Shown here: positions 10,435 through 60,406 of the stretch, in pieces
How positions within the stretch are numbered: position 1 is the first letter of the stretch
How the letters are laid out: each line of letters begins with the position of its first letter
Assembly: GCA_036924285.1 (NCBI GenBank)
Contig: JAYKYS010000002.1
Location: 8,928,001 to 8,992,000 of the forward strand
Source: Asterella californica
Lineage: Eukaryota > Streptophyta > Marchantiopsida > Marchantiales > Aytoniaceae
Direction of reading: 5' to 3'
Length of the DNA: 64,000 nt
The notes under the pieces: model-generated
What the model saw: only the letters and a program-made list of their open reading frames with translations
Databases searched by the model: none
Told to the model about the DNA's origin: nothing
Position numbers and translations under genes: made by a program

Positions 10435-12299
10435 TATCGTGTCGGAACAGCACAAAACTGAGGAAAAGACCAGAGCAGTCTGTAACCTACTTCAGAAGCC
10501 CTAAAACAAACCCCTGAAACGTAACCCTAGTCTGAAATCGCCAAAACGTAGCTCAAAGCAAGAGGAACTTCTCTTTGCTAACAACCAGAGCCACAACAGT
10601 ATCATGCGATCCAAACCCAAGTCCAAACCACATCCACACACTAGCTCTTGGCTAAAGCTAGCTACCACAAGCCATACACAACCAACTAAGTCCTTAACGA
10701 ACTCAAAAGGACGAAACCTGTAGCGAAGGAACCGAAAAAGACCTATCTGGGAACTTTCTCCTTTCGCCAAACGATCTTCAAATGTTGATAGGGTCTCCTT
10801 CCCTGACTCCGTTGGCCCAAGAAACCTTCAGATCCGGCTCCTGATAGTTGAGATATCGCTAATTTTCGATCGCAGGTGATCGAACCTTCAAAAACTCCTC
10901 CCTGCGGCTTAAAACCGCTCACATCGCACAAACGGATCGTCTAAACTGATATCCGTCTTCGCTGGTAGGTAGATCTGGCTACCCTGAACCCAACAAGACT
11001 CCAAACAAGCCGTTTGGAGTTCCCCTTGCAAAACTACTCGAGAAATTTGATCGCAGACTACAAAAAACTGACGTAAATCGGCTCCCTACGGCTCAAATTT
11101 GCTCACCACACCCAAACCAACAATCCAATTCACTTACAGTCTTCTCCTATGCGTACATGAGGACTCCCTGATCGCGTAGGCACCAAGAACGAAGAGCTTG
11201 GCTCACCGATCGTGAAGAACAATCCAATCTCAAGTCGCAGGCGATGAAAACCTGACGCAAGCGCTTCTCTGCGAGCCAATTTCTCTCACAACTCTCAAAC
11301 CGCCCGATAAAACTTTGTATCGTCTTCAATTTCTTGAAGAACTCGTTGTTCTGATCCCGATGGATCCAAGGACAGCAAGTTTGGACTCCGGAACGGCCCG
11401 AACGGTCCAACTCTCCTTCACAGGTAACTGAAAACTTCAATTCTGCTCCCTGCGTCTCAATTTCTCCCAGAACACAACCCCCGATCCGTCTCTTCAAGAA
11501 CCGTCTTAACTTGTGCGTAGCTTGCACAGATCTGAACCCGATGACACCTTGCGCGCGTGTATTGGACTTCCCAATTCTCCAAAACATCCACCGACAGGTC
11601 GCAGGAACAAGCAAGTCCTCTAAGCAGCCCCCTTGCAACAGTCTGTACGTACGAAGTTCAACCCTCAATTATAAGAAGCAGGCCCCTTGCGTCTTTAATA
11701 TAACGCCTGAAGCCCTAAATACCCAATCAGCAAGTAACTAGGGGCCTAGCTTGATTTTACCTTTTTCTGAATCGCATAACTTCTTCTCTGGATGTCCAAA
11801 CGAAATAAACAAGATGCCCATGGAAAGCTGACAACGAGCTCTATCCATCTATGCGATAAAAGTAAAGATCCGAAGTTGCACCAAAAGCTCGTAAGCTGGG
11901 GCCTAGCTTGTTTTCTCCATCTTTCGAGTCCTGTAACTTCTTCACTATGCGTCCAAACGAAGTAGACAAAGTGCCTATGGAATGCTCACAAGGAGCTCTA
12001 TCCACTGGTGCGATAAAAACGAAGATCTGAAGTGGTGCTAAAAACCCGTAAGCTGGGGCCTAGCTTATTTTCTCCATCTTTCGAGTCTTGTAACTTCTCC
12101 ACTAGGCGTCCAAACGAAGTAGACAAAGTGCCTTTGGAAAGCTGACAAGGAGCTCTACCCATCTATGTGATGAAAATGGAGATCTGAGATTGCGCCAAAA
12201 GCCCGTAAGCTGGGGCCTAGCTTGTCTTCTCATGAGTGTCTTTGGAGCGACAAGCATCGAAGTTTGAATTTCAAGTAGGAGCCGGTCCACGACACGACA
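10435..12299 (-). repeat. Element D 3' LTR
   Basis: Nearly identical to the 5' LTR at 29442-31463 but lacks about 165 bases close to its 3' end. A 173-codon ORF (11147-11668) is open in both LTR copies but has no recognisable domain and unusual composition; I do not call it a gene. Several tandem-like blocks containing GCTGGGGCCTAGCTT occur at the U3 side. Confidence 0.85.
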
Positions 12300-12318
12300 T
12301 CCACCCCCTCTGAACCTG
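12300..12318 (-). other. Element D polypurine tract
   Basis: On the minus strand CAGGTTCAGAGGGGGTGGA runs straight into the TGTCGTGTCG start of the 3' LTR. It matches the polypurine tracts of B, C and F. Confidence 0.8.
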
Positions 12319-12374
12319 TGCATCCTCCGGTATGCACCAGAGATACCAACCAAGGAGTGGACCGGCTTATCGTC

Positions 12375-14130
12375 CTACTTCCCATCGTAACCAACCTCAC
12401 CTTCAAGATCTTCTGCATAATCCTCATCCTCAAACTGAAACTCCGTCAAGATATCTGCTAGATCGACCTCCTCATCTCTCTTTTTGAAAATCTTGACGCG
12501 TTTACCTGCCACTGGTACCTTCAAGCTTATTCCATCCAACTCTTGCAGGGCGTAAGTTGCGTTGTCATGAACCTTCTCCACCACATACGGACCAAACCAT
12601 CTTCTGGAAAACTTCCGGAGTGCACTATGCTGGTTGTCTAGACTGTTGTCATAGACTAACACCCAATCACCTTCCTTGATTTCCCTAGGTCTCAAACGAT
12701 GTCGCTCATCAAATCTGACCTTGTTCTTCAACCGTGCTTCTCGCAGCCTACCCAAAGCAGTTTGGATATCCTCTGGTCTTTTCTCTAACTGCCTAATTCG
12801 AATAGCAATAAGCTCTTCTCTAGTCAAATTGTCCTCCCAAGGTAACACACTCCATGTCAGAACATGTTCTTCAATCGGCATGATAGGCTTTTGACCTGTG
12901 ATGAGTTCCACCGGCATGTAACCTGTCACCGAGCTGTGCGTCGTTCTATCTGCCCATAACGCAAATGGTAAGAGTCGAGGTCACTCGCGCACCCTTCCGT
13001 TGCAAGCCTTCACCAAAGCCTTCACAATGGGTGGATGACCACGTTCACTCTTGGCATTCCCTTCGGGGTTGTAAGCAGTTGTCAGTGACAACCTCACCCC
13101 ACACCTTGCAAAGAATTCACGAGCCTCATGTGCATCTAGCTCTCCCCGATCTGCAGTGATCTTTCCCACACATCCATACCGACAAACAACCTCTTCCAAG
13201 AGAAATCTACATACCCCTTCAGTTGTCTTCGTCCGAAGCGCCCTACCCTCGACTTGATTTGAAAGATCCTCTCTAGCAAGTACCAAGTATCTCATCTGCC
13301 ATAATCCAACCGGCATAATCACCAAGTCTACCACCCACTTGAAGTGGATCGCCAATGGATAAGTCGGATGTAATCCGTCACGATGTCGGATATTCGAATA
13401 CATCTGACATGTCAAACAAGACTCCACAAAAGATACAACATCCCTGTACATGTTTTTCCACCAATACCGCTCTTTCATCTTTGTAAAAGTGGTCCAAATC
13501 CCTCGATGTCCAGCCCAAAGACTCTCATGGAACGCCTTGAGCAACTTCTGCTGATCTTCCTTGTTGCAAATCACCCGTAGCGATACTCCACCTTTTTGCT
13601 TCGATCGCTTCCAAAGAAACCCATCCTGCAACATGAAGTTGTAGGCCTTCCTTCTAACTCTCCGAAACCTCTCATCTCTGTCCAACCTGTCTGCTTAACC
13701 ATCGTACTAAGGTACCTCCCGATATCAAGCAAATCACCATCATACAACCCTTCAACAAACAACTCATCTTCTCTTCCTGTCTGTGCAATCGAATAGAACT
13801 CTGTACCCACGTCATCAATGTCTTTTACCATCTCATCTTCCCCATCATATCGAGCCCGAGATAACATATCCGCCATCAGATTATCCTTCCTTGCGATATG
13901 TCTAAACTCCGGGTTCAACGACTTGATATATGCGATCCATCGTAACATCGCAATATCAGGAGTTGAACAATTCATGATCATCCCTAACAACGGCAAGCAA
14001 TCAGTTTCAACCACCACTACTGCTCCAATCAAATACTCTTTCTCAGTTTTCATAGCTGCAACAATACCCCACAATTCTCTCTTCACTTGCGGATAAGCAC
14101 GTTGTCGAGCACTTAACACCTTCGCTCCTA
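12375..14130 (-). pseudogene. pol: Element D pol, C-terminal part: RNase H end and integrase
   Basis: It resumes after element E with AKVLSARQRAYPQVKREL and the RNase H block ETDCLPLLGMI. Integrase follows: zinc finger (H...H near FHESLWAGHRG, CLTC), first catalytic Asp in VVDLVIMP, second in TADRGEL, and Glu in KSERGHP. There is a frameshift near 13685 and a TGA at 12981-12983 in the conserved Trp codon (see finding). The end has RRWFGPYVV, then an acidic tail (EDEDYAEDLEGE). No chromodomain is visible. Confidence 0.88.
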
Positions 14131-14417
14131 TCACGTCAGTTTGGGCACCTCGGCTAGGTTGATCGAGTGCGAAGTGGCGCATCCCGATAAGGCCGTTAGT
14201 GCCGTTAGGGCGAGTTGGAGAGAGAGCCCACTAGGGGTAAAATTCGCAGGTAGGGCTTGGAGGCCTTAGTTCTTTGAGTTGAGCCTTCAAGCTCCAGGCT
14301 ATGGTGGATAGTCTAGTTGAGTGTAACCCGGATTCTCTTCGCGTTTAGAGTGGGTTTGGCTTGACCGTTTGTGAGTAATCCTTGTTGTGGTGTTGGAGAT
14401 GGTAATTTCTCTATACA
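14131..14417 (+). repeat. Element E 5' LTR, truncated
   Basis: From CACGTCAGTTTGGGC to CTATACA. It matches, in reverse complement, 22360-22698 and 22200-22353. The TGTGGTACAC start of the LTR is missing here; the full LTR would be roughly 0.35-0.4 kb. Confidence 0.75.
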
Positions 14418-15053
14418 GATTACTCAAAGAACTGAGTGCAGGTCAAGGCGGAGTTCAGTAAGAGCTCGCAGATCTGAAATCGGAAATCGTCCGCTGGTAT
14501 CTTCGGGCGTTGTTGTTCGTGGTTGATTGTTTGGAGCTGTGATCAAGGTGTGTGGGCGCCGTGCTACATTGCTGGTCGCAGATCGATTTGCTGTTGATTG
14601 GGGTCGAGTGGAGATTTCTGTCATGCGGAAGCGCTGCAGAAATTTTGCGGAATGTTCTTGAAGTGTGTTGTTGGAGCCGGATTGTGCGTTTGGGCGTAGC
14701 AGCTGAAATACTTGTCAATGTCGGGCCGGAGTGGACTCTTTGGAAGCGCATTGGAAAGACGATTCTAGCGCACTAAGTTTCGTGGAGTTTGGCCAAGGAT
14801 TGAAGAAGTTATGGCATGTCGAAGTTCGCTGCCGTGAAACCCGCAAGCAATCGGTGCAATCTTCTGCAATTCGAGCCTCTTCTGGTGTGTGTGTACCTGT
14901 TCTACTCTACTTCAAGCGGAGCGGAGTGGAGAGTGAGCGGGAGTGTCGAGGTGTGGAGTGCGTGTTAGGAGGCGTTTCGAGGCTTCGAGGAGCAGAGGTG
15001 CGTGAGTGCGGAGGAGTGAGAGCGGAGTGCGAGAGTGCGGAGGCGGAGCGGAG

Positions 15054-15088
<35 letters not shown>

Positions 15089-16047
15089 CCCGAGCCCGCC
15101 GCAAGCCAGCTTGCTGGCGTGCGTGAGAGAGGTATCCAAGCTTCAGGTGTGTGGGAAGGGTAAAACCAGCTGGTCACCCATCCCAACACTATTCTTGGAC
15201 CTGGACTCTTGACTCTGTAGTCTTAGCTTTGGCTTTACCACTAGACCAATAGCTCTTGGTGTCCTATAGGGATGCGTGCAAGTACTTATGGACTTGTATA
15301 AGGTAGTAGGAGACCTTCTCGCACGTCCCTAGAGGAGTGGTAGGACGACCCCACAGTATTAGGGGGAAGCTATAGTTGTGGTAGTGTTTGCCTACACCGT
15401 AGAGGCGTGTATGGAGGCAATTGGTGGCAGTTGTCTTGGGTGAGCTAGTAGAGCTACCACGTGGATGTTTTTGGAGCTACTAGAGGTGTGGACATCTAGT
15501 TAGTGACCTCCAGTGTCAGTTACGACTGTTGGTGACCATATATTGTGCATGTGGTCACCGACAAGGAGTCGTCAGTCCGGGTGGGACTGGGTTTCTCTTT
15601 ATGTGAATGTTTGAGTGTGGAGGGTTATCGTTTGGACTTCTTGTGGTTGGAACCCCTCCATACTCTGCTTCCTGTTTGTGCGCCGCGTTTGCTTGTGTTG
15701 GTGCTTGATTTCCGGAGTGAGTTCACTCCAGTGTGCTGTCGATAGTGAGGCTGGAGTTGCGGACCAGTCAGACTATCTTTGTCTCTCTCACGGTGCGGTT
15801 GGAGTGACGACCAACAGACCGTGAGAGGCTGCCTGTGGTGATGGCAGGTACAAGTTGCCCTTACCTTGACCGTCCTAGTAGGGGATAGGTGAGCTCAGTA
15901 GGAGCGGGGTTAGGCAAGTGGTGGTTACGGTGGTGACGGAGATTGCGACATTCCGGTTGGGGAGTGTGTTAGCGGGATTCTCTCATCACGGAGTTCTCGG
16001 GAGGTTCTGGTGGGGACTTCTCGGACAGTGGGTATACACGGAGTGGG
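14418..16047 (+). other. Element E leader without a recognisable gene
   Basis: About 1.6 kb between LTR and gag. No primer-binding site starting with TGG is visible close to the LTR. Short ORFs occur in several frames but none resembles a known protein. It contains a short hexanucleotide repeat at about 15051-15100. Confidence 0.6.
15051..15100 (+). repeat. GAGCCT/GAGCCC hexanucleotide microsatellite
   Basis: Seven or so head-to-tail hexamers, GAGCCT then GAGCCC. It gives artificial Leu/Ser/Pro or Gly/Ser peptides in the overlapping ORFs. Confidence 0.9.
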
Positions 16048-19000
16048 GTGAGGTACCGACTACCTACACCATTGCCGTCGGTTGTTCCAGAGGACGAGTC
16101 AGACGCAGACATCGCGTTTTCTGATGGTGAGTCTAGTGTCGCAACACCGTTGTTGTGGGACATGGACGAGATCTATGGTGCCACGAAGGGGCCTCGACGT
16201 TACTCGGGTACAGTTGGTACCATTGAGCTGGATGACTTCATACAGGAGTTCGACAGTTGGTGCGATCTACAGCAGATGCGGAACCCACAGCTGTTTACAC
16301 CCTTCATGGCGTGGAAAGGTTTGTTCCAGCACTTGGAGGGACCGCCGATGGACGATTATCATGAGTTCAGGCGAGATTAGAGTGTTGAGATCGAGTTGTG
16401 GAGACAACATTGGTCTCCCAACTACGTTTCTATCACTACTGGCGCAGTTTCGGGAGGCGTAGCACCTGCGAGTTCGGGTGCCATTAGCAGTGGTACAGCC
16501 GCAGGTGGCGGAGTACCTACTACCAGCGGTGCGTCCTCAGGTAGTGGAGCAGGTGGTAGTGTGAGCGGGATACCACCAGGGTTTAACCCTGTGGTTCAGT
16601 TCTTCCAATGTTTGAGGAAGAACTATCAGGGTGTGCGGACCGACAAGTTGAGGAGTCTGCAGGAGTTCCAGCGGAAGACTGGAGAGAGCCTACGCGAGGC
16701 GTTTACTCGCATGAGGCGGTTGATCAGCGTTACCCAAGGGGTGACGGAAGCACAGGCAGTCCAGTTCTGGTATGGGATACTAGACCGGGAGCTGCGTAGG
16801 AGAGTTAGAGATGCTACTCTTCTTAGAGATACCGCTCCGACGTTGGCGGTTGTCTTTAGTCTGGCTGAGCGGATTGAGCTCAACATGGTGGAGGAGAGGG
16901 TGGTGGTTGCTGGGTTCAGCAAGGAGACACCACATGGAGCGACCACCTCTTCTCGAGGATCACAGGCTACGCAACAGCGTGGTGGTGGTGGTGGTGGTAA
17001 GGATCGTGCAGAGCAGTCACGATCGCAGGGAGGTGTAGGAGGATCTGGTGGGCAGAAGCCCCTGCCGTCCTTCTCTAGTCAGCAACAAGCGGGTCCTTGC
17101 TGGACGTGTGATGGTCCTCATCAGCAGAGGGACTGTCCACAGAGGAGAGGTTATGAGACGTCAGGGACATCAGGGACGTCTCAAGCAGTACCTAGGCAAT
17201 GTGAGCATTGCGGACGACCTGGTCACAGTAGTGATCGTTGTTTTGATCTCCATCCTGAGTTGCGGCAAGGGAAGGCTGATCGTGGACGAGGCGGAGGAGC
17301 TCAGGGAGGCCGTGGTGGTCGAGCTGGAGGTAGAGGTCTAGCACCTGGGAGAGGACCGGTCGGTCCACCGCCTGCTACGACGTCAGAAGCAGGTATGGCT
17401 GCTCGGATTGAGCAGTTGGAGCAGAGGATAGCTAGTATGGCTATGGCTCAGCGGAGATCAGGTGGAACAGAGGCTTCCACGTCTTATGGAGGAGAAGGAG
17501 GTGACTTCGACTTCATGGCTGGTGTGGCGCAGATTGAGGCATCTGCGGCAGTGACTAGAGGTGCAGTACGTGCCTCTGAGCCACGAGGTACGTCAGTGGA
17601 GTTGGATCCACAACGCGGGGAGGCTGGTAGACAAGCCAGGCTTCCCCAGTCGTTCACGTTATCGGAGGCGTTGAGGACCACATCTATGGTTCCTAAACGA
17701 CCTACCGATGGTGCAGTAGAGTTGGAGGCATCGACATCCAGGAGGGGGTGTGATGTGAGTCCACCTTCGACGTCTGTGGATGCGACGTCGAACCCGATGT
17801 TGGGGGCGGCTACAGCAGTTTTGCGAGCCCCACTATTCTCAGCCACGGATATGAGGACATTGGGAGTCAACTTGGCTCCAGTGTTCCAGTTGGCGGCCAC
17901 GCTCAGTGAGAGCGAAGATGTAGTTACCTCTAGTGCTGAAGTAGTTCAGCGAGAGGCGGTAGACGTGTCCATGGAGTCGAGGATCAGGACAGCTACCAGT
18001 GGTACTTGGCAAGCGGCGGCTGCTAGGTTAGATGAGTTACCAGCTAGGCCGGCGATTGACCGTGCTAGTTTGGCACCAGGTGTGGTGTTGTTGGACAACA
18101 GAAGTGGTATCTTCTGTTTGGTGGCACCTTCAGGGAAAGTGTATCGACCCCAGAAGGTCTTGTTAGACTCTGGAGCCCAACCGTTGATGTTGGGAAAGGT
18201 GGCGTGTATTGGTTTGGGTCTGAAGAAGTCCGAGATAGAGAGATGTCCATTCCAGTTGCAGACATCTCTAGGGGGATCAGGAGGTACGGCTCTACACATG
18301 ACACGTGAGATGTTGACGGTGAGAGTTCGGTCAGATCATCCCACGGATGGCTCTATGGTGAAGGCCAAGGCCATTGTTACAGCCGCAGAGTCTTATGATG
18401 TATTGGTGGGAGGTGCTGTGTTGTACCCTATGGGGTTCGTGATTGACTATTGGGCAGAGACAGCATCTTACAGACCAGGTTGGCAGTCCGGTGAGGGACG
18501 AGTGAGCCGCTTACCAGTGCGGTTCAGTGCTAGAGTTGGGACGACGGAGCCTACACCAGGAACGATGGCATCCGTTGCAAGGTTCAGTTCGATCATCACT
18601 TGGCCGGACGAGTTGTTGGAGGGTAATGCCCATGCGGAGGACACTCCGATCTATGAGGAGGTGGAGGACATGCCTAGCATGTCTACGTTAGTACCATCTG
18701 CCTTGGATGTGCCACTCTGGAGTTCAAGTGGAGAGTTGCAGCAGTATGCTGATCAGTTGGTGCAGCAGGCTTGGAGTGAAGCTTTTGTACCACCAGTAAA
18801 GGAACAAAGGGTTGTTCCTGCTACTGACCCTGTGACCTTATCACCGTTGGATACGACTCCCATTGTGTGGCAGTATCCAGAGGAAGGTGTATGTGTGCTG
18901 GAGCTGTTTGGAGGGATCAGCACAGGTTTGGCTGCGGTATTGCAGGCAGGTATACAAGTACAGCGATACTTGTATGTGGAGAGAGATGAGATTACGAGAC

Positions 19001-20088
19001 GCATCTCATTGCGACATGTGGCACGTTTGGTGCAGAGATATCCTGAGTTGTTGCCCATATCAGCTGTTAGAGGATACCAGCAAGCATTACTGTCGGATAT
19101 TTCGCTGCTGGGGGCGCAGGATCTTATGTTTGTGGGCACCATTCACTTGGTGATAGCCGGATGGCCATGTCAAGGTCACACGCGTGCAGGGAGAGGTCAG
19201 GGTTTACATGACCCGCGATCTAGGATGTTCTGGGAGATGTTACGGATCCTACGACATCTCCAGATGCATCAGGTGGATTCTCCAGCGTACATCTTGGAGA
19301 ACGTTCCTTTGTTGGGTGATGCTCGTACACAGATGATGGCGAGTGTGCACCAAGTGCGGTCTTGGGTTGGACCAGCAGTGTTGTTGGATGCAGCGAGAGT
19401 GGGATCTCGTGCACATCGTCCACGGTTGTGGTGGACGAACTTGTTACCGAGAGAGGTGCTTAAGCGCGCACACGATGGAGTGAGACGACCAGCGCACCTC
19501 ACGGTTGATAGCATCTTGGATGCAGGACGACGATCTCAAGTAGTGAGAGTCGTCGATAGGTCACCCATGGCAGTGGTGAACCTAGTGGGACGGCCCATGG
19601 TAGCATTACCCACATTGGTAAGCTTTCCAGCGTCACATGCTTACAGAGATGGAGGACCTGGGCTTGTGTGGGATGCTCAATTACGGCAGTTGGTGGAGCC
19701 CAATGCCGATGAGAGAGAGCGAGCGATGGGTTTCACTACAGGTACGACGGCAGTAGCTTCGGTGTCGGAGGCTTCACGTCGTCAAGTATTGGATCAAGCA
19801 ATGGACTTGAATTCCTTGACATGGATTGTTAGCCTTGGATTGGCTGAGCAGCGTCGGATGCGATCGACGGGTGTTACTGCTCGAGCACTCTTGAGCTCTT
19901 TGCCTATCGGGTCGGTGGAGGCAAAGGCTGGGGGCGAGGCAAGTGGAGTTCGTCATCCTTGGACATCATGGGATGTCATAGGAGAGAGTGTGGAGCTTGC
20001 AGCTAGAACTGCAGAAGTTTTACGCACAGTAGCGGTGGAGGTTGTTGGTGGTGAGCAGAAGGAAACTGCTCCAGAGGCTGCAAGATAG
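16048..20088 (+). CDS. Element E Gag-protease-cytosine methyltransferase polyprotein
   Basis: A single frame of about 1346 codons interrupted only by TAG at 16378-16380, probably a point mutation because Gag-like sequence continues in frame. The first ATG in frame is near 16160. In order: a Gag capsid-like region (FIQEFDSW, then LRSLQEFQRKTGESLREAF and RRRVRDATLL); two CCHC zinc knuckles with first Cys at 17098 and 17200 separated by a Gly/Arg-rich stretch; an aspartic protease with D-S-G at 18166-18174; and a C5-cytosine methyltransferase domain at about 18870-19860. The frame ends at UAG 20086, followed in frame by RT. Known for the family: Gag packages RNA and protease matures the particle. 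Inferred: the methyltransferase marks element or host DNA. Position of the domain between protease and RT suggests release by proteolysis. Confidence 0.85.
18870..19860 (+). other. C5-cytosine DNA methyltransferase domain (DNMT3/DRM-like)
   Basis: Motif I is VLELFGGISTGLAAV (about 18892-18936). The following RYLYVERDE has the acidic residue expected to bind the cofactor ribose. Motif IV is GWPCQGHT with the catalytic Cys codon at 19168-19170. Motif VI is ILENVP with Glu at 19297. Motif VIII is R-x-R within AHRPRLWWTN (19411-19440). A late motif is ERERAMGF (19711-19734). The stretch DAARVGSRAHRPRLWWTNLLP closely resembles the DNMT3/DRM pattern in which this Arg pair precedes WGNLP. All catalytic residues I looked for are present, so the domain could be active. 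The reaction would be transfer of methyl from S-adenosylmethionine to cytosine C5. Confidence 0.88.
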
Positions 20089-20094
20089 CAGTCA
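20086..20094 (+). promoter_or_regulatory. Candidate UAG readthrough site UAG-CAG-UCA (element E)
   Basis: The stop of the Gag-protease-methyltransferase frame is followed by CAG TCA, fitting the UAG-CAR-YYA leaky-stop consensus known from tobacco mosaic virus. RT continues in the same frame with no further stop. Element G has the same arrangement at 54339-54347. Confidence 0.75.
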
Positions 20095-22143
20095 ACGACT
20101 TCGTCTTCTACCTCTAGCATGATGACAGAGGATACTTGGGAGCCGGAGATCGGACCCAAGCTTATAGGAGAGGAGAGACGAAGAGTCCAAAGATTCCTGA
20201 AGAGCTACAGGAATTGTTTTGCCTTCAGTATGAAGGATTTGGGTACCTTGAAGGGACCTGGTATACGGATCGACTTGGCTAATGACACGCCAATCTTTCG
20301 ACGTCCTTACAGGTACAGTGACATGGAGAGAGCCTTGATCCAGAGTCGGACTCAAGACTTATTGGAGGTTGGGTTGGTGAAGATGTCGCATGGAGAGTAT
20401 GCATCTGCCACAGTTATGCCAGCCAAGAAGGATATGTATGGCAACTACACGGATAGGCGGATGTGTGGAGACTACCGTCCTATCAATCGGCAGACAAAGT
20501 CCGATCAGTATGCCATGCCGACACCTGAGGAGATCTTTGATGCAGTGGGGCATGTGAAGGTCTTCAGTACTTTGGATCTTCGAGCAGGGTATCATCAGTT
20601 GCCAGTGAGAGAAGAAGATAAGTCCAAGACAGCATTCTGGGGAATTGACTCTCACGGCAAGGATTGTTTATATCAGTGGCGGTTCTTACCATTTGGGTTG
20701 AAGAACGCCCCTGCTGAGTTCCAAAGGGTGATGGACAGAATCCTAGCAGGATTGGATTTTGTCAGATGTTATATCGACGACATCTTAGTCTATAGTGCTA
20801 CAGTGGAGGAGCACGAGAGACACTTACGGGATGTGTTTGAGCGGTTGAGAGCTCATGGGTTGAAGTTACACCCCGGGAAGTGTAAGTTCTTCCAGGAGTT
20901 GGTAGAGTATCTGGGCCACACCATCTATCCAGGTGGATTGGGTGTTCAACAGACGAAGGTTGAGGCTATTGCACGTATCCCGCGCCCCACAGATGTGAGT
21001 CGAGTTCGGGCATTTGTTGGTTTGGCGAACTTTTATCGTCGGTACGTGAAGGGATTTAGTGCAATTGCGAAGCCGTTGACCAAGCTGATGAAGGTGGACC
21101 AGGAGTGGCAGTGGGGAGATGAGCAGGAGCGAGCTTTTGTAGAGCTCAAGGATAGGTTGACATCTGCTCTCATCTTGAGGAGACCCGTTAGGGGGCGTCC
21201 TTTCCAACTGCACACCGATTGGAGTATGTTGGGACTTGGAGTAGTGCTGACTCAGCATGATGATGAGAAAAAGGAGTTCGTGGTGGCGTATGCCAGTCGC
21301 TCCAATAATTCAGCGAAGGCGAGGTATAGTTCGTATGAGGGAGAGTGTTTGGCGGCAGTGTGGGCTGTTGCACACTTTCGATGTTATCTGTTTGGGAACC
21401 CCTTTACTCTCATCACTGATCACCAGCCGCTCAAGTGGTTGATGGAGTCCGACAAGCTTACAGGGAAGCTTGCACGATGGGCTCTGATCTTACAGGAGTA
21501 TGACTTCCAAGTAGTACATAGACCTGGAGTTGCAAACCTAGATGCCGACGGGTTGAGTCGCAACCCGTGCACGAGTCAGCAGGATCAGACTGGGGCTCGC
21601 TGGCAGGACGAGGTTGATGAGGAGATAGTGCCAGGGTGGCATGCATCTGCCTTTCTTTGTGTGTTGGCCATGAACTTTAGTATGGAGGGCCAAGTCGTAT
21701 CTTTCTCTGGTCAGAGGGTAGATGATGAGTCTCCAGATCCTGAGGGTGGAGATGGTGTTCCAGACCAGCGAGATATCCATGATGATGTGACCGTGTTGGA
21801 GTATCTACGTACTGGTGTGGTAGTAGGCACAGTAAGTGCCAAGGAGCGAGATCGTGTCTTTCATAGGCGCACTATTTTACGAGTGCGTGAGGTGTTACCT
21901 TCTGGAGTACTCATGTTAGAGGGCCGTGATGGTGTTGTGTGGAAGGACCATGTGCGTAATTGCGCGCCATGTCATCTTCCCAACATTGATGGTACCGTTG
22001 ACCCAAGCTTAGCAGTTGTACGCGCGGGCTTGAGGTGTATGTTGTGTGGGTCTGCTAGCGGAGCAGCCCGTATGTTGGTGTGTGATGGTTGTTCGAGAGG
22101 TTGGCACATGTCATGTTTGACTCCACCTCTCAGTAGTGTTTGA
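20089..22143 (+). pseudogene. pol: Element E pol: RT and RNase H with integrase deleted, truncated PHD
   Basis: Begins right after the leaky UAG; first ATG at about 20119. RT is complete: LDLRAGYHQ, FGLKNAP and canonical Y-I-D-D near 20769. RNase H follows (HTDWSMLGLG, ITDHQPLKWL, LDADGLSR). At about 21857 the frame jumps from RDRVF straight to RTILRVREV: nearly all of integrase, present in the inverted copy, is missing. The tail keeps the GPY/F-like segment and the first part of a PHD finger, then stops at TPPLSSV before the last two Cys ligands. Such a copy could not integrate by itself. Confidence 0.88.
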
Positions 22144-22872
22144 CTCCACCTCTCTGATGTGTATGCGCACGACATATGTTGTGTTATGTGTATGCGCCAC
22201 TTCGCACTCGATCAACCTAGCCGAGGTGCCCAAACTGACGTGACAGCTGTCGTGTGCATACACATCGCTACACAACATACATCGCTGTCAGAGGTACACC
22301 ACACATACACATAACACATGGACGATGTCATACACATACACAAGTGTACCACAATAATCTGTATAGAGAAATTACCATCTCCAACACCACAACAAGGATT
22401 ACTCACAAACGGTCAAGCCAAACCCACTCTAAACGCGAAGAGAATCCGAGTTACACTCAACTAGACTATCCACCATAGCCTGGAGCTTGAAGGCTCAACT
22501 CAAAGAACTAAGACCTCCAAGCCCTACCTGCGAAGTTTACCCCTAGTGGGCTCTCTCTCCAACTCGCCCTAACGGCACTAACGGCCTTACCGGGATGCGC
22601 CACTTCGCACTCGATCAACCTAGCCGATGCGGTAAGAGGTACACCACACATACACATAACACATGGACGATGTCATACACATACACAAGTGTACCACAAT
22701 CGCCCTCCCTAACTGGCGGTTAGGTCCCTCTAACTCCAGATAGCTCCATATCCCAACTACGTGATACACACCTTCATGGGTGCAAGGATCAGGAGGCCGG
22801 GTGCTACATTGCTCCATCGTTAGTCGCCTGTCTGCAATCCATACCACGCAAAGATCTAATCGACTATCTCCG
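22144..22872 (-). repeat. Centre of the inverted repeat: element E LTR remnants in tandem
   Basis: On the minus strand, the 3' end of pol is followed by about 160 bases of 3' untranslated sequence and a purine-rich AGGGAGGGCGAT at 22699-22711. Next come an LTR starting TGTGGTACAC at 22698 and ending CTATACA at 22360, a 6-base spacer, and a second LTR fragment from 22353 to about 22200. The first LTR lacks the CACGTCAGTTTGGGC segment that the second has. No gene here. Confidence 0.7.
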
Positions 22873-23937
22873 CTATATACATCGAGGACAAACCCACCGT
22901 CCAGTAGGAACTACACTGAGAGGTGGAGTCAAACATGACATGTGCCAACCTCTCGAACAACCATCACACACCAACATACGGGCTGCTCCGCTAGCAGACC
23001 CACACAACATACACCTCAAGCCCGCGCGTACAACTGCTAAGTTTGGGTCAACGGTACCATCAATGTTGGGAAGATGACATGGCGCGCAATTACGCACATG
23101 GTCCTTCCACACAACACCATCACGGCCCTCTAACATGAGTACCCCAGAAGGTAACACCTCACGCACTCGTAAAATAGTGCGCCCTGCGGTCACGTCCAAC
23201 GTCGTCGGTGCAGTCTGCTGTAGATAGATATAATCGCCAGGATGAAACCTGCGAATCGACGGTCGATAACCTCCTCCTCGGATAGTCGCATATCGCAACG
23301 TGTCTCTATGCTGAGCAATCGCTAGGTTCTCAAAAGCCATAGGCATAACTCTCCGAAATGTCTCTGCTCGTTGAGAACATGCTCTCACCCACATATCCGG
23401 GTCATCAAGGTCCAGCACCTCAACAGAATCACGACGAATGGCCGAAGATAGATCTGGATCTCGGCCATACAATAGAAAATACGGTGAGAAGGAAGCCAAA
23501 GACGCTTGTCGGCTAAAACGGTAGCCCATAACCAACCATGGTAACTGCACATCCCAGTCTCCCAAGAGGCCCTTCTGCAAGCCATACTTGCGCAATCCTC
23601 TCTTCACCGTCTGAACTACCCTCTCCGCCAAACCATCCGCCTCAGGATGATCTCGAGATGTAGTCCGATGATCAATTAGCGCCTGATCACACAAGGTCTG
23701 AAACTCACCAAGGAACTCTGTACCTTGGTCTGTCAGCACTTCAGCTGGTGCTCCAAAACGACTCAGCACTCGATCTAAGAACGCGTACGCCGTCCCTTCA
23801 CTCGCCTTGTCTGGTAATGCCACCAACTCAATCCACTTGGAGAAGTGCTCCACCATCACCAACACATACCGGTGGTGACGTACGGTCAACTGTAAGGGTC
23901 TCGCAAAATCCAAACTCCAACGGTAACCCAACCCCAT
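22873..23937 (-). CDS. Element E integrase core with C-terminal PHD finger (inverted copy)
   Basis: 355 codons open on the minus strand. Integrase catalytic residues are visible as Asp in WSLDFARP, Asp in VLTDQGTEF and Glu in HPEADGLAERV. A host-binding GPY/F-like tail (RTILRVREVLPSG) follows. The last 50 residues form a PHD finger: C-x2-C-x11-C-x2-C-x4-H-x2-C-x14-C-x2-C with the usual Trp two residues before the seventh ligand. PHD fingers read histone H3 tails; in integrases, chromodomains play such a targeting role. A frameshift at about 23937 separates this frame from the integrase zinc finger upstream (24299-23886), so the copy is broken. Confidence 0.88.
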   Translation of the reverse strand: MGLGYRWSLDFARPLQLTVRHHRYVLVMVEHFSKWIELVALPDKASEGTAYAFLDRVLSRFGAPAEVLTDQGTEFLGEFQTLCDQALIDHRTTSRDHPEADGLAERVVQTVKRGLRKYGLQKGLLGDWDVQLPWLVMGYRFSRQASLASFSPYFLLYGRDPDLSSAIRRDSVEVLDLDDPDMWVRACSQRAETFRRVMPMAFENLAIAQHRDTLRYATIRGGGYRPSIRRFHPGDYIYLQQTAPTTLDVTAGRTILRVREVLPSGVLMLEGRDGVVWKDHVRNCAPCHLPNIDGTVDPNLAVVRAGLRCMLCGSASGAARMLVCDGCSRGWHMSCLTPPLSVVPTGRWVCPRCI

Positions 23938-24299
23938 AATCGGTAAGGGGTGTAACTGTGGAGTAGGAGCATTAACGATGCTCGTACTCGATCACAAACC
24001 ACACATCGTGCGACAAACTGTTGCACATCGATGTGCATACCACGCCACCAATACTGTCCTTGGAGTAAGCTATGCGTACGCTTCACTCCAAAATGTCCCA
24101 ACTCCTCATGGGCATGTCGTACTAACTGTGCCCTCTGGGATGGATGTGGCACTATCCGTACCCTTCCATCACCCCACACTCGAAGTACATGTCGTCCTTC
24201 TCGTCGAAATCTCTTCGCTCGTTGAAGAACACGATCTCGCTCCTTGGCACTTACTGTGCCTACTACCACACCAGTGCGTAGATACTCCATCACGGTCAC
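23886..24299 (-). pseudogene. Element E integrase N-terminus (inverted copy)
   Basis: Contains the HHCC zinc finger (H in VRHAHEELGH, then CVVCDRV) just before a one-base frameshift that leads into the core domain. It starts right after another frameshift at about 24300, where a short patch of foreign sequence has replaced the original (see finding). Confidence 0.8.
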
Positions 24300-25223
24300 A
24301 TCATCATGGATATCCCGCTGATAGAGAAATTACCATCTCCACCCTCAGGATCTAGAGACTCGTCATCTACTCTCTGACTAGAGAAAGATATGACTTGGCC
24401 CTCCATACTAGAGTTCATGGCCAACACACAAAGAAAGGCAGATGCATGCCACCTTGGCACTATCTCCTCATCAACCTCGTCATGCCATCGAGCCCCAGTC
24501 TGATCCTGCTGACTCGTGCACAGGTTGCGACTCAACCCGTCGGCATCTAGGTTTGCAACTCCAGGTCTATGTACTACCTGGAAGTCATACTCCTGTAAGA
24601 TCAGAGCCCATCGTGCAAGCTTCCCTGTAAGCTTGTCGGACTCCATCAACCACTTGAGCGGCTGGTGATCAGTGATGAGAGTAAAGGGGTTCCCAAACAG
24701 ATAACATCGAAAGTGTGCAACAACCCACACTGCCGCCAAACACTCTCCCTCATACGAACTATACCTCGCCTCCGCTGAATTATTGGAGCGACTGGCATAC
24801 GCCACCACGAACTCCTTTTTCTCATCATCATGCTGAGTCAGCACTGCTCCAAGTCCCAACATACTCCAATCGGTGTGTAGTTGGAAAGGACGCCCCCTAA
24901 CGGGTCTCCTCAAGATGGGAGCAGATGTCAACCTATCCTTGAGCTCTACAAAAGCTCGCTCTTGCTCATCTCCCCACTGCCACTCCTGGTCCACCTTCAT
25001 CAGCTTGGTCAACGGCTTCGCAATTGCACTAAATCCCTTCACGTACCGACGATAAAAGTTCGCCAAACCAACAAATGCCCGAACTCGACTCACATCTGTG
25101 GGGCGCGGGATACGTGCAATAGCCTCAACCTTCGTCTGTTGAACACCCAATCCACCTGGATAGATGGTGTGGCCCAGATACTCTACCAACTCCTGGAAGA
25201 ACTTACACTTCCCGGGGTGTAAC
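24296..25223 (-). pseudogene. Element E RT end and RNase H (inverted copy)
   Basis: Matches 20866-21790 of the plus copy almost base for base in reverse complement. It starts without the RT active site at TTACACCCCGGG and joins element D sequence through about ten filler bases. RNase H motifs are HTDWSMLGLG and ITDHQPLKWL. The frame ends early after GGDGNFSI because of a short replaced patch. Confidence 0.85.
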
Positions 25224-26957
25224 TACAACCTAACCCTTGAACCTAACCGCAAACCTGTCTCCATCTTCATCATCCTGTCCGACTGTCCATCCAATTGCAA
25301 CTGGACTTGTATCCACAGTAAGAACCACCGGCCTAGCACCATTGTAATCAATCCTTCCCAGAACTGGAGGAGATGATAGTAAAGACTTCAGCTTCCTTAC
25401 CGCATCAATATGCTCTTCCTCCCATCTGAATTTATGACCCTTATGCAACAATCCATACAACGGATCCGCCACATGCGCATAATGAAGAATCCAAATGTGG
25501 TAGAATACACAAGCACCCAAAAATCTTCTTACTTCTATCAGCGAGTTGCAAACCTCCTTCATCCTTCCAATCGCATCCACCTTGTTCGGATCTGGCTTCC
25601 GACCAAACGATCCACACAAATGACCAACGATCAAAACCTCTCTAACTCCAAACGTAGACTTCGCACCTGATAGCGTAAGATGAACTTCCTCAAGTCGAGA
25701 TAAGATCTTCTCACAGTCTGCGATGTGATCAGTGACGTATCACCGACACCCCCTCTGATCTAATGCTTCATCCTTCTCATCTTCCACACATCCTTTGATG
25801 GGGATGTCATCCAAGAACGGCATCATCTTTTCGGGGATGAAGTCCCTTAGAACTCGATTCATCTCGTTCATCATGTGTGCTACCGAGTTGGTAGCTCCCT
25901 GTGGTAAGGTACACATCTTAACCAACCCCAAAGGTGTCCTCATTGTCGTGAAGCTTCTGCTCTCCTCCGCTAGTTGAAACTGATCATACCCCGAGTAAAG
26001 ATCTCCCATTGAGTAAATCGCTCTTCCTGCAAACGCTTCTGCAAACTCATCCACAATCGGTCCCACCCCAGCATTTCTGATTGTTACTCCGTTCACCGGC
26101 TGCATGTCTTGGATGAACCGCAGCGACCCATTCTTCTTTGGTACTGTAAACCATCTGCTTGAATATGGTGCAAACGACGGCTCCAAGATCTTCATCCGCA
26201 TCTTCTCCTTCAGCAACTCCACTAGTTTGGGCAAGTGAGCCCGCGGTACTGGAATTGGTCTCAGGTTCCATGGCACATGCGGTACCGTGAAGATAACCAT
26301 CGGGGTAACAACGTACGGATCTACACACCCAATCTCATGTGGCTCAAAAGCAAATGCTTTCCCATGTCTTGAAAGCATCTCCTTGAAGCACATCCTCTCT
26401 TTTGGTAGAAGAGACCCATCAGATCCAATCTTCAGCTCTTCAAGGGTCTTCTCCGTGAACTTGTGTCCTATCATTGCCGGATCTCTCAAACTCTTCTCCT
26501 TTGAAGCTCGATCCATCTGTTGGTTGGTGTCTTCCGGCAAAGGACCAGCAACTGGCTTTACTTTCCTATCCACTGTCTTGTACCTTGTCTCAACTCGAAC
26601 CTCCGGTGCACGAAATGATTCGATCACCGAATAGACCTCCCTTGAATGAATCTGCACGACCTTATCCATATCCTCCCATCCAATAGACATGATCTCTCGC
26701 AAGGGATCTTCCAACCCATCCTCTTCATAAACACCAGAAATCCATTCATCCCCTTCTAGCTCACCCAACTCTTTCAACATCAACTCAACACCACGCAAAT
26801 ATTTTTGTTCTTTTCTTCTCAGCTCTTCTATCTTCTTGTAGACAGCAATCCCACACTCTGAAAATCCAATAAACCCTGTACAAAAGGCACTATCTCCATC
26901 AAGCGAGAGTACCTTCTCTTGCGCACCACCACAATCTCGCTCTATAGTGGTACTCAA
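25224..26957 (-). pseudogene. pol: Element D pol, N-terminal part: linker, RT, start of RNase H
   Basis: Starts at TTG 26957 in the -1 frame relative to gag-pro. Linker, then RT with FTVPKKNGSLRFIQDMQPVN, YSGYDQFQL, LPQGATNSVAHMM and catalytic F-L-D-D in PFLDDIPIKG (Phe instead of Tyr). One TGA at 25740-25742; the frame continues past it through VGHLCGSFG, RRFLGACVFYHIW and the RNase H start VDTSPVAIGW, until interrupted by element E at GDRFAVRF. Confidence 0.88.
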
Positions 26958-47669: not shown

Positions 47670-48236
47670 TGTGAAGCCTTGGTTTTTCGTTTTTGTTAAT
47701 TAATTGATTAGTTGTAAAGTAAATAAGAAGAATAGATGATAGAAGATAACCGATATGAGTAGAATAGTGTTAATTAGAAGTTTAGAGAAGAATCTCAGTT
47801 CTGGAGGAATTTATCGAATCTATGGAGACACTAAAAGATGATTTTCTCATAGATGAATTCCTCGGGCGAAGACCTTTCTAACGGTATGTTGTGCGAGGCA
47901 ATCGGAGACCGAACGACGAAGTTACAGTCGACGGAAGAATGTCAGTCGTCAAGAGGAAAACCCTAACTTCGGCTCGTGCAGGAAAGCCTATCGCGGGATA
48001 TAAGCAAGGTAACAAGTTGTTTACTTTACTCTTTTACTATTCCCAGAGCGAGCGATAGCAGGGCGCAGAGAGCCGCATTTACCGAACGCCGAAGTACGTC
48101 AGTTACGGGCGAGGAAGCCAATTCGTGAGTGAACGGCGAGGAAGCCAATTTGCGAGGAAGTACGTCAGTTACGGGCGAGGAAGAGATTGCAGCGAAGAAT
48201 CCGTTTGTAGCGAAGATCGTTGCAGTGATCCTAGGG

Positions 48237-50069
48237 ATGCGCGGGATGCAGACGACTAAGGCGCCGAGGCTCCGAGCCTTTGAAGTTAATCGACTAGCTC
48301 TTCGCCGCTATGACAAGGAGCTCGAGGAGATGGGGTTGGCATTCCTCTTACTTCCTTGGTGGGGAATGGTCTCTTCCAAATTGGTACATGAGTTGAAGGT
48401 TTGCAAGCAGCATCCGGCCGATGACAACTATGGGCGACCGTGTAACTAGACCGAAGATCACTGGTCCGGCGTCTTGGGGACTGACGATGCAGGCAGAGAA
48501 GGCGATCTTCTCTTCGATAGTGTGTCCGCCGCTGCTTCACCCGAAGCAGTGAAGAACTTCCCGAATCTCTTCAGGGAATTGCCTCAAGGGAGGAATGGTT
48601 ACAGAACGGGCGATTACTGCGAGCCGAAGAAGAGAGAAGTAGCAGATGCGATTATGGCGATCTTCAGGCCAAGAAGAACAACGTACATGTCGAATTGGCA
48701 GATCAACTTCATTGAGCAGCTCTTCGCCGGAAGAAGAGCACATTGGGCGAGGATCATCCACCGACATGTGCTGAAGCTTTGGAACGCGAATGACTTGGCG
48801 TACATAGGACCCTTTGTATCGGTGTTCTATATGGGGATGGGGTTGCTATCTGAGGCACAACAGACGAAGTTAGGCTTTACCGCAATTGCCGAGGAAGATG
48901 AATTCCAAGTGATACAGACTCCAGCCCGAGATGTAAATCTCGAGAAGTTCTTCGATGAAGTCATCGCCGAAGAGCCGAGGACCGAAGTAGCAATGGAAAC
49001 AACGCCGAGGCAGGAGGCATCGACTTCAACACCAGCTGCAGAGAAGACGCCCGAAGCAGTTACTCCGGCCGAAGATGATGATGTAGTAGAGGTATCTCCT
49101 CCAGTGCGCAGAAGTGGGAGGAAGAAACCTCTGGAAGAGACACCGAGGTCGACACAGAAGTCGCGGAAGAAGATGAAGATGACAAGGACCGTTCGCGCCG
49201 ATGACGAGCCAGTAGAAGAAGAAGCGACTGAGGAAGCTGACGAAGTTGACACTCCTCGAGCGGAGAAGAGCGTGGATACTTCACCAAAGACTAATTTTGC
49301 TCTATCGGCAATGAGGGAGGTAGACCAGCTTGTCTCTTCGGCGAAGTATGTGCAGGAGGTGGTCGCACCCCTGTTGTACAGCTTAGAGGGAAACCGCGGG
49401 ACATACGAAGAAGTGGTCGGCCGGAAGCTGAACCTAGCAGAGTTGGTACAGACGATGCACTTCGGCCGAGGGAACTGGAAGGAGGAGAAGGACAACTTAC
49501 GAGCAGCTCTCCTCATGGCGCAGAAGGAGACCCAGGCGAAGATGGAGGAGTTGAAGAACGAGAAAGCGGAGAAAGAGGTTCTTCTTCGGCAGAAGTTGGA
49601 TAGAGAGAAGGAACATGAGAAGGTTCTTTCTTTGACGAAGAAGGAGTTGGACGAGGTACGACTTCAACGGGACAGGAACCTGGATGTCGTCGCACAGATG
49701 ACAAAGGAGAACGAGGATCTAAAGCAGCGAGTCATCAAGGCCGAGGAGCTGAGTGCTCAACTTCGGAGTAGGGTCGAGCCGGTGTTGAAGAACTACTTCG
49801 CCGTTGAGCTAGACACCGAAGAGCTGAGTTTTCTTCGTCAGGTTAGAGAGGAGTTCTTAGCTGCAGATGCGGAGGGTACTTCAGCTAGGAACCGGGTAGC
49901 TAGGTTAGGACAGCGAGTAGTTAGGGAGCTTAGGGAGGTTAGAGCAACCGTAGAGTTCTCAGTTTGTGAGATAGGTAGAGAGCTAGCGGTAGAAAGCGGT
50001 GTCGTTTCTGGTGTCGTTTCGGACACAGGACCTTCATCCGGCGGACCAGAAGTAGTCCCGACTTCTTAG
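48237..50069 (+). CDS. U3-encoded coiled-coil protein of element G (5' LTR copy), in-frame UAG
   Basis: The frame is open from 48129; the first ATG is at 48237. It is interrupted once by TAG at 48447-48449 and is then open to 50069 (about 610 codons from ATG). Before and after the TAG the sequence looks like one globular domain (RLRAFEVNRL, LLPWWGM, then TYMSNWQINFIEQLF, WARIIHRHVLKLW, IGPFVSVFYMG). The middle is acidic and Thr/Pro-rich with basic KKPLEE/KSRKKMKM patches that could be nuclear signals. The last third is a Glu/Lys heptad coiled coil (about 49460-49770). I do not recognise the family; its layout recalls accessory ORFs of plant Athila-type elements. Being in U3, it would be expressed from the 3' end of the element RNA or from its own promoter. 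Confidence 0.7.
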
Positions 50070-50100
50070 GAAGAAGATCCGTCATCTTCGGGAAAATCTG

Positions 50101-50108
50101 TATATAAG
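50101..50108 (+). promoter_or_regulatory. Candidate LTR TATA box of element G (TATATAAG)
   Basis: Follows the U3 ORF and precedes the polyadenylation signal at 50724-50729, the expected order for an LTR promoter. The copy in the 3' LTR is at 59652. Confidence 0.55.
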
Positions 50109-50723
50109 CGTTGTGTTGTTCGTATTCAGGACCTCTATGTGTTTTATCATTTTTGAGTTTTCTATTTCCTGAGTTTACGGAGCCATTGAGTGTTTTGTCT
50201 TCTGCGAAAGATTTACCTACGAAGTATCGTAGTTTGCTGTGGTAGGAATTAGTCTGGGTGCCGAAGAATTTGCTGTTGACATTTGAAATCAGAGTAGAAC
50301 GTTTACGGCGAGGACTGAGAATAGACCAGCATCTGCGGAGTTAGTTTACTACGAAGACAGTTTTGGGCGAAGTTGACTTTGGAAGAAGTTGTTCTTTGGT
50401 AGAACACTTAGGAAGAAGTTCAATCTGGTTCTTCGGCGGAAGAAGAGTCTTCTTCGCCAGAGATTTCCGAGAGCAGTAGTAGTGAAAGTAACTCAGTGTG
50501 AAGATATTTAGCATTTATGTTGTTAAAGGCTACTTAGTAGCACTTCAGCAGTACTTCCTCGTGTGACATTTCCGTCCGTGGCTCTGTTTCTCTGTTGTTT
50601 ATCTGTTTCTTGAGGTCCCTGACCTGTTCAGTACCTGTTATGTTTATTTGTCAGGATTGTCAACTCTGTCTTGTTGGATAGATCTGAGTTTGATCTCTAC
50701 CGGGACTGATTTCTGCCCGTGAG

Positions 50724-50729
50724 AATAAA
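50724..50729 (+). terminator. Polyadenylation signal AATAAA in element G LTR
   Basis: AATAAAA within GAGAATAAAAGAC, about 620 bases after the TATA box. Repeated at 60275-60280 in the 3' LTR, where it would end the element RNA. Confidence 0.5.
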
Positions 50730-50876
50730 AGACAACTATAAAGAATCACCTTTGTCACGTGTTTACTACTTTTGGATGATCTTTACTTGCATCTCTGTGG
50801 GTTCGATCCTTAAATTACTACTTTCGAGCATCTTTTGGTTTTCTTGTGTGTTACATATAGAAGACTGAATAAATTT

Positions 50877-50894
50877 TGGCGCCGCTGCCGGGGA
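50877..50894 (+). other. Element G primer-binding site (Asp tRNA type)
   Basis: TGGCGCCGCTGCCGGGGA, 21 bases after the LTR. It differs by one base from the TGGCGCCGTTGCCGGGGA site widely used in plant gypsy elements, which pairs with the 3' end of tRNA-Asp. Confidence 0.85.
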
Positions 50895-50945
50895 TGCGAA
50901 TGCTGAAATTATCCAAGATCAGTGAACAGAAGTCCAGAGACATGT

Positions 50946-54341: not shown

Positions 54342-54347
54342 CAATCA
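54339..54347 (+). promoter_or_regulatory. Candidate UAG readthrough site UAG-CAA-UCA (element G)
   Basis: The stop of Gag-protease is followed by CAA TCA, fitting UAG-CAR-YYA. The frame is open for 38 codons before the first GTG/ATG candidates of pol, and pol lies in the same frame. There is no frameshift, no intervening stop and no good internal ATG near 54342, which favours readthrough. Confidence 0.8.
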
Positions 54348-57182: not shown

Positions 57183-57207
57183 GTGTTCGCGGGGTCGCTT
57201 CACAATT

Positions 57208-57220
57208 GAGAGGGGGAGTA
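57208..57220 (+). other. Element G polypurine tract
   Basis: GAGAGGGGGAGTA immediately before the 3' LTR. Confidence 0.9.
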
Positions 57221-60200: not shown

Positions 60201-60406
60201 GTCAGGATTGTCAACTCTGTCTTGTTGGATAGATCTGAGTTTGATCTCTACCGGGACTGATTTCTGCCCGTGAGAATAAAAGACAACTATAAAGAATCAC
60301 CTTTGTCACGTGTTTACTACTTTTGGATGATCTTTACTTGCATCTCTGTGGGTTCGATCCTTAAATTACTACTTTCGAGCATCTTTTGGTTTTCTTGTGT
60401 GTTACA
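57221..60406 (+). repeat. Element G 3' LTR
   Basis: 3186 bases, essentially identical to the 5' LTR; ends GTTACA followed by the target repeat TAGAG (60407-60411). Confidence 0.95.
57788..59620 (+). CDS. U3-encoded coiled-coil protein of element G (3' LTR copy), in-frame UAG
   Basis: Identical in protein sequence to the 5' LTR copy, with the same TAG (57998-58000). This copy lies downstream of pol in the full-length element RNA, the usual place for an accessory gene overlapping U3, and starts about 600 bases after the pol stop. Function unknown. Confidence 0.7.

Follow-up and report, generated by a model that had tools for sequence, protein, structure and literature searches.

Introduction

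Cytosine methyltransferases carried by retrotransposons were reported by de Mendoza et al. in 2018 (PMC5890265), the paper to which a preliminary description of the DNA studied here had pointed. There, KnitGypsy-Dnmt3 of Klebsormidium nitens is described as a Gypsy element with a Dnmt3 domain, DIRS-like repeats and a Ka/Ks below 0.2, and SymbioDIRS-Dnmt3 as methylating CG de novo in a yeast assay. Split direct repeats of the order A1-ORFs-B1A2B2 (ORFs, open reading frames) are described for Ngaro elements, which have a tyrosine recombinase in place of the rve integrase (PMC8547959); for DIRS1-like elements a circular intermediate has been proposed, and DIRS1 integrates without target duplication (PMC3266345). 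Here, we analyzed a 64,000-nucleotide (nt) stretch of the Asterella californica genome (contig JAYKYS010000002.1, positions 8,928,001 to 8,992,000, forward strand), hereafter the window and numbered from its first letter, which holds a Ty3/gypsy element with a DNMT3-like C5-cytosine methyltransferase domain, together with the family to which this element belongs. The explanation put forward below, which taken as a whole seems to us evenly balanced between right and wrong, is that this gypsy family would carry the enzyme on its Gag side and that its self-primed DNA would circularize, perhaps become methylated, and then integrate.

A DNMT3-like domain maintained in a large gypsy family

The plus-strand frame at 16381 to 20088 encodes Gag zinc knuckles (17098 and 17200), a D-S-G protease (18160) and the methyltransferase domain (18883 to 19860; catalytic Cys codon 19168-19170), in agreement with the preliminary description, which had placed knuckles and protease in one frame. 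Its central proposal, a C5-methyltransferase inside a Ty3/gypsy element, was borne out by profile, motifs, predicted fold and family-wide occurrence. The domain matches the Pfam profile PF00145 with 35.3 bits against a curated cut-off of 22; motifs I, IV (PC), VI (ENV) and VIII (R-x-R) follow in that order; and DNMT3A/B is the closest solved structure both by sequence and by predicted fold, while AlphaFold without an alignment returned an uninformative predicted local distance difference test score (pLDDT) of 34. The profile match and the sequence match to DNMT3A/B led us to reject a chance match or a frame artefact. The label "DNMT3/DRM-like" survived in its first half only: sequence and predicted fold are DNMT3-like, whereas a DRM-like enzyme was rejected, as the motifs run unpermuted from I to X instead of VI-X preceding I-IV, and the host has a separate, permuted DRM. 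A VIA-align comparison of the predicted fold contained neither DRM nor DNMT1 among its 50 rows, which excludes neither. We regard the presence of a DNMT-type domain in a gypsy family as virtually certain.

The full domain order is Gag-protease-DNMT-[UAG CAG UCA]-reverse transcriptase (RT)-RNase H-integrase (DDE)-PHD, with the stop in frame with RT. The genome assembly comprises 516.7 Mb in 773 contigs, and 23 fixed bases spanning the stop are matched exactly at 821 places in it, giving at least 821 junction copies. A first look yielded 4279 candidates, 121 of which were scored, each with at least 96% identity.

Selection and motif counts were based on 35 of the 38 loci L008-L045, after two host genes (L016 and L017) and one locus without a tblastn match (L034) had been left out. 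Variants present in at least three copies fall on codon positions 1, 2 and 3 in the numbers 22, 17 and 68, and singletons in the numbers 80, 52 and 66. The common variants comprise 39 nonsynonymous and 67 synonymous changes, corresponding to a nonsynonymous-to-synonymous polymorphism ratio (pN/pS) of 0.20-0.28 depending on the transition weight, whereas the singletons comprise 124 and 60, with a pN/pS of 0.73-0.99 on the same terms (Fisher p=7e-7 for common versus singleton variants). The preliminary description had suggested that a dN/dS near 1 across many copies would betray an unmaintained domain; the ratio for the old variants lies far below that value, and a decayed or neutral domain was rejected for them. 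The domain therefore appears to have been kept while the lineages multiplied and to decay after insertion, and we consider its maintenance by selection highly likely. The N part of RT has a pN/pS of 0.10-0.15. The linker between the domain and the stop (19861-20085), with a pN/pS of 2.6-3.2 and 20 nonsynonymous to 3 synonymous common variants, is, to judge from this variation, relaxed or fast-evolving.

The origin of the domain is a separate matter. In pairwise comparisons of unequal fragments (200 amino acids of the domain against 161-215 of the others), its first 200 residues scored 93 bits with a viral enzyme, 62 with DNMT3A, 47 with the host DNMT3 and 35 with the host DRM, so the domain resembles phage/viral DNMT3-like enzymes no less than it does DNMT3A or the host DNMT3 gene. 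These phage/viral C5-methyltransferases (PHROG 116), the source of the best score, share the PCQ motif; they differ in usually having GD in motif III and GN in motif X, both absent from the retroelement domain. A single-sequence search of viral contigs for relatives of the domain found none. In the tree, the family forms a very long branch of 3.0 changes per column, the branching order is weak, and a topology constrained to hold the family with DNMT3A and the host DNMT3 was not rejected (p-AU 0.25). Given the long branch and a viral score at least equal to the DNMT3 scores, capture from the host is not to be claimed, and "DNMT3-like" is a label of sequence and predicted-fold similarity, not of descent.

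The host's own genes are distinct from the family. The DRM gene (L017) has the typical permuted order and matches DRM2 with E=2e-106, and the DNMT3 gene (L016) consists of at least two exon pieces with E=2.7e-14 to DNMT3A; DRM is described as confined to streptophytes (PMC12344493), which places the host in this lineage. Two further PF00145 matches, G000:C526:5101837-5102190 and 5132592-5132945, lie in frames of 340 and 517 codons and span positions 2-101 of the profile; they resemble the host DRM and differ from the retroelement copies. The excluded locus L034 (G000:C526:10359269-10359532) matches PF00145 at 5.7e-8 and has no tblastn match to the window's domain; it is possibly another divergent methyltransferase or a relic.

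Split terminal repeats and a possible circular intermediate

The ends were inspected in 46 copies (26 + 20), drawn from the best-scoring of the 121 and hence biased to young, intact ones. Both ends were readable in 23 of the 26, and right-end landmarks were present in 40 of the 46; landmarks were missing from d10, d12 and d18 in the first set (d12 at the left end only, so that it was kept in the right-end set) and from L185, L195, L200 and L201 in the second. Alignment of six copies revealed a repeat A1 (294 bp) on the left and B1 (about 106-108 bp)-GC-A2-B2 on the right, with TG...CA termini. Gag, protease, RT and RNase H followed by rve, together with TG...CA ends and a short target duplication, are features of Ty3/gypsy elements, but instead of one identical long terminal repeat (LTR) at each end the family has A on the left and B-GC-A-B on the right. 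Conversely, the split direct repeats A1-ORFs-B1-A2-B2 are those of DIRS/Ngaro/PAT elements, but in place of a tyrosine recombinase and an absence of target duplication we found H2C2 and rve domains (two copies) and a 4-bp duplication that is perfect in 22 of the 23 copies and matches at three of four bases in the other.

In 39 of 40 copies B1 is preceded by the polypurine tract GTTAGGGGGGCGA, and the sequence ACTCAAAGAACT directly after A1 is complementary over at least 12 nt to AGTTCTTTGAGT inside A in all 23 measurable copies of the 26; none of 2000 base shuffles of one copy's primer site reached 12 nt. In the window, the putative self-primer, which would form the 5' end of the RNA, lies at 14268-14279 and the putative primer-binding site at 14422-14433 (both plus strand). 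Self-priming of reverse transcription is probable on this evidence: the RNA would begin at AGTTCTTTGAGT, fold onto the complementary site after A1 and prime its own minus strand, and the plus strand would be primed by the polypurine tract before B1. The minimum-energy fold gives a mixed picture, pairing self-primer and primer site in only 14 of 24 copies. With a primer site after A and a polypurine tract before B, the unit repeated by RT would be B-GC-A, although the integrated element starts where A starts and stops where B ends.

The two internal junctions of the right end behave differently. All 40 copies have the palindrome GACA-GC-TGTC (GACAGCTGTC) at B1/A2 without any change, whereas the A2/B2 junction is altered in length in 10 of 40 (0/40 at B1/A2; Fisher p=0.001). 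Five of the ten changes are an added T and two an added A; one is a residual polypurine tract (d11), one a primer-site CTC with filler (cA) and one a rearrangement (d09). Primer-site and polypurine remnants are known at the circle junctions of retroviral LTRs, and by analogy the content of the two scars at A2/B2 favours end joining. We hold it slightly better than an even bet that a circle is the integrating form. Reverse transcription would leave a linear DNA with B-GC-A as its long terminal repeat; the ends would join (A|B) to give a circle; and the integrase would cut the palindrome GACA|GC|TGTC in one repeat, discard the GC and insert A-coding-B-GC-A-B with a 4-bp duplication. Cleavage of LTR-LTR palindromes is described for foamy virus and HIV-1 integrases (PMC1180852, PMC1905944).

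Several observations weigh against the circle. Seven of the ten A2/B2 changes are single added nucleotides that could be slippage; the three large ones alone, compared with 0/40, are not significant (p=0.24); and one of these, d09, lost most of A2 in an inverted rearrangement and shows no clean junction scar. Moreover, if a circle offered two equal cut sites, A-B-A-coding-B insertions would be expected as well; none occurred among the 23 copies readable at both ends, which calls for assuming some asymmetry. The +1-nt variants, the rearrangement and the missing product would suit an unusual linear path of reverse transcription that made the A-coding-B-A-B ends without any circle, the A2/B2 variation being slippage plus an old rearrangement. 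We consider this account unlikely: the polypurine remnant of d11 and the primer-site remnant of cA lie exactly at A2/B2, B1/A2 is constant, and the ends defined by RT (polypurine tract before B, primer site after A) differ from the integrated ones (TG of A, CA of B).

End joining of the A|B type and integration from circles have long been held a dead end in retroviruses. More tentatively than for the circle itself, the pattern suggests Ty3/gypsy elements of a class in which the circle is the productive DNA: the RT unit B-GC-A would be circularly permuted relative to the integrase unit A...B, joining of A|B would be obligatory, the integrase would act on an internal palindromic attachment site, and a DNMT made at the dose of Gag through a leaky UAG would act on the circle.

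Possible functions of the methyltransferase

That the enzyme methylates the element's own DNA is an idea to which the sequence data lend a little less than even chances. Packaged with Gag, it would most likely methylate the double-stranded (circular) DNA de novo before integration and thereby keep it from being treated as foreign or unmethylated. Three points bear on such an activity, the first and last of them against it. The Asp of motif III is replaced in all 35 copies (Ala in 32, Val in two, Thr in one) and the Gly of motif X is Leu in 34 of 34; both are usual cofactor-site residues. The C-to-T decay of the copies is equally strong at CG and CHG, which fits host methylation: singletons are mainly transitions at C, with per-site values of 0.31 at CG, 0.32 at CHG, 0.16 at CHH and 0.05 at A/T. 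As such decay is expected from host methylation of inserted copies, it is uninformative about the element's own enzyme. Finally, in yeast no methylation was obtained with the KnitGypsy DNMT, a result that the authors of that study judged inconclusive (PMC5890265).

The replaced cofactor-site residues, the very long branch and the inconclusive lack of activity of the K. nitens relative in yeast would also suit a domain that has been maintained without remaining a DNA methyltransferase, namely a DNMT3L-like DNA/RNA-binding Gag accessory for particle assembly, nuclear entry or strand transfer. We find this account rather doubtful, as all 35 copies retain PCQ, ENV and R-x-R and the catalytic Cys would be superfluous for pure binding.

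A quite improbable third account is that the enzyme modifies the element's RNA or, with the PHD finger, host chromatin, thereby quieting the insertion and sparing the host. The PHD finger (22036-22134, and 22873-23010 on the minus strand) is closest to those of the histone-tail readers DPF2, CHD4 and KDM5, the copies decay at CG and CHG as if methylated, and host-sparing and RNA ideas are among those in the Discussion of PMC5890265. Against this, DNMT and PHD lie on separate parts of the precursor (Gag side and Pol end), and no extra methylation is seen, as the CpG observed/expected ratio of the window element is 0.70 compared with 0.61-0.71 in neighbouring gypsy elements without a DNMT. The same figures give no sign that the DNMT raises CpG loss in its own element, and this candidate effect was rejected.

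A probable readthrough stop and a C-terminal PHD finger

The stop between DNMT and RT lies within TAG CAG TCA (20086-20094, plus strand). The stop region is covered by 34 of the 35 loci, the window copy among them, and TAG is kept in 33, the remaining one having a deletion; of the 821 matches the first 100 were listed, and among these 95 have TAG, four TAA and one AAG. The site fits UAG-CAR-YYA, the motif of type I readthrough in tobamoviruses (PMC3542737), for which the chance is about 1 in 512. Past the stop, the frame of five of six copies stays open as far as the retrieved sequence reaches (921-936 codons), and that of the sixth closes after 199 codons; RT, RNase H, the H2C2 zinc-binding domain and the rve integrase were found in both copies scanned, and a C-terminal PHD finger in all six.

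Readthrough of this stop is very likely in view of its context and conservation. Because a conserved in-frame stop stands in a type I readthrough context, we infer that Gag-protease-DNMT would be the main product: ribosomes would mostly stop at the UAG, making it at the dose of a structural protein, and some would read through, adding RT-integrase-PHD. Reinitiation, splicing or a second RNA could instead supply RT without readthrough, as Ogre-like elements splice near the corresponding place and ATG stands at the 11th and 12th codons past the stop. This is improbable given the type I context, the shared frame, the TAG in 33 of 34 loci, a stop codon in 99 of the first 100 matches listed, and the stop at the end of gag in the Ty3/gypsy element Tj1, which is likened to that of type C retroviruses (PMC4600332).

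No chromodomain was found by Pfam in the frames scanned, and the PHD finger stands in its place. By analogy with chromodomains, the finger may steer integration. No title listed in our literature searches dealt with a PHD finger in a Ty3/gypsy element; in one of the listed papers the PHD gene belongs to the host.

The window copy

The window copy itself is a rearranged relic. Its A1 (14129-14422, plus strand, delimited by alignment to six other copies) begins with TATCACG... instead of the TGTCACG... of those copies. The N-terminal part of Gag (15973-16380) ends at a TAG (16378-16380) where an open frame of about 1370 codons runs on in many other copies. The Pol part (20089-22143) contains RT and RNase H, then a deletion that removed the integrase, then a truncated PHD finger. 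It is followed by a rearranged terminal-repeat block of mixed strand (22154-22700), in which pieces of B and A are mostly inverted and the palindrome GACAGCTGTC occurs at 22242-22251, and by an inverted partial second copy (22873-25230, minus strand) with a truncated RT, RNase H, the integrase core (rve) and a complete PHD finger, 97-99% identical to the plus-strand copy over the common parts. The extra TAG at 16378, the lack of an integrase in the plus-strand part and the fusion to an inverted partial copy make it implausible as an active autonomous element. Self-comparison of the window indicated that the copy lies within another, minus-strand gypsy element extending to either side of it, 12266-14127 and 25246-26120 matching neighbouring parts of a related gypsy element.

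Copy d09 (right piece L072) has a comparable structure: A2 breaks off after 48 bp; next come an inverted duplicate of the copy's own 3' end with B1, an inverted integrase piece and then B2, and the 4-bp target duplication is intact. This copy looks like self-integration before insertion, and it resembles the window copy. With a similar inverted 3' piece beside a truncated A2 in d09, such inversions recur in the family. In the window's inverted partial copy, at 24322-24336, some 11 nt of the linker between RNase H and integrase have been exchanged, so that 20 nt are identical to part of repeat A (GGAGATGGTAATTTCTCTAT, compare 14402-14422), as if by a brief template switch of RT.

Elsewhere in the window, a 3,191-bp direct repeat of 99.9% identity (47670-50860 and 57221-60411) flanks a region (50907-57182) with a gag-like frame of 1144 codons and a pol frame of 946 codons, and each repeat contains an open frame of 539 codons (48450-50069 and 58001-59620); the unit at 47670-60411 resembles a young gypsy element flanked by LTRs of the ordinary kind. 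No RNA families or tRNAs were found within the window.

Comparison with known systems

The A. californica family is a further member of the KnitGypsy-Dnmt3 kind, in another genome. Compared by its published description, KnitGypsy-Dnmt3 is likewise a Gypsy element with an in-frame Dnmt3-type domain, DIRS-like terminal repeats and purifying selection. It differs in its host, K. nitens being said to have fewer DNMT elements, unlike Symbiodinium, whereas at least 821 junction copies occur in 516.7 Mb here; and the A. californica DNMT precedes a conserved UAG, apart from RT, unlike that of KnitGypsy-Dnmt3 as described. SymbioDIRS-Dnmt3 has the same A-coding-B-A-B repeats, and its polyprotein likewise includes a Dnmt3-type domain, but it has a tyrosine recombinase where our family has a DDE integrase (PMC5890265). 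The same contrast, along with the 4-bp duplications, separates the family from Ngaro, PAT and VIPER elements, which are alike in their A1-ORFs-B1-A2-B2 split direct repeats (PMC8547959, PMC6681497, PMC3266345). Besides that of PMC5890265, no Gypsy element with split direct repeats and a DDE integrase turned up among the titles and abstract openings listed from the open-licence literature. The Tj1/Tf1 group of Schizosaccharomyces is Ty3/gypsy-like. It resembles our family in self-primed reverse transcription and, for Tj1, in a stop at the end of gag; the relevant passages of PMC4600332 mention neither a DNMT nor split repeats.

The words "PHD", "gag", "target site" and "circular" are absent from the main text of PMC5890265, which, as far as seen, gives site duplications for SymbioLINE elements only. 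As far as seen in that text and in the literature searched, the leaky stop, the target duplications, the junction pattern, the self-primer and the PHD finger, as read here, would be additions to the KnitGypsy-Dnmt3 kind.

DNMT-bearing Gypsy elements are thus not confined to K. nitens and can form a very successful family. Encoded together with Gag ahead of a stop that is probably leaky, the enzyme would have both its dose and its place fixed, in the particle with the cDNA. DIRS elements can carry adenine methyltransferase-like domains. If the circle reading is true, DNA methyltransferases would recur in elements with split or inverted repeats (DIRS, SymbioDIRS-Dnmt3, KnitGypsy-Dnmt3 and this family), because a naked nuclear circle would need methylation. 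The family raises the question of whether nature uses integration from circles, and, as a DDE-integrase retroelement whose direct repeats are split, it offers a case open to testing that would link the life cycles of LTR and DIRS elements.

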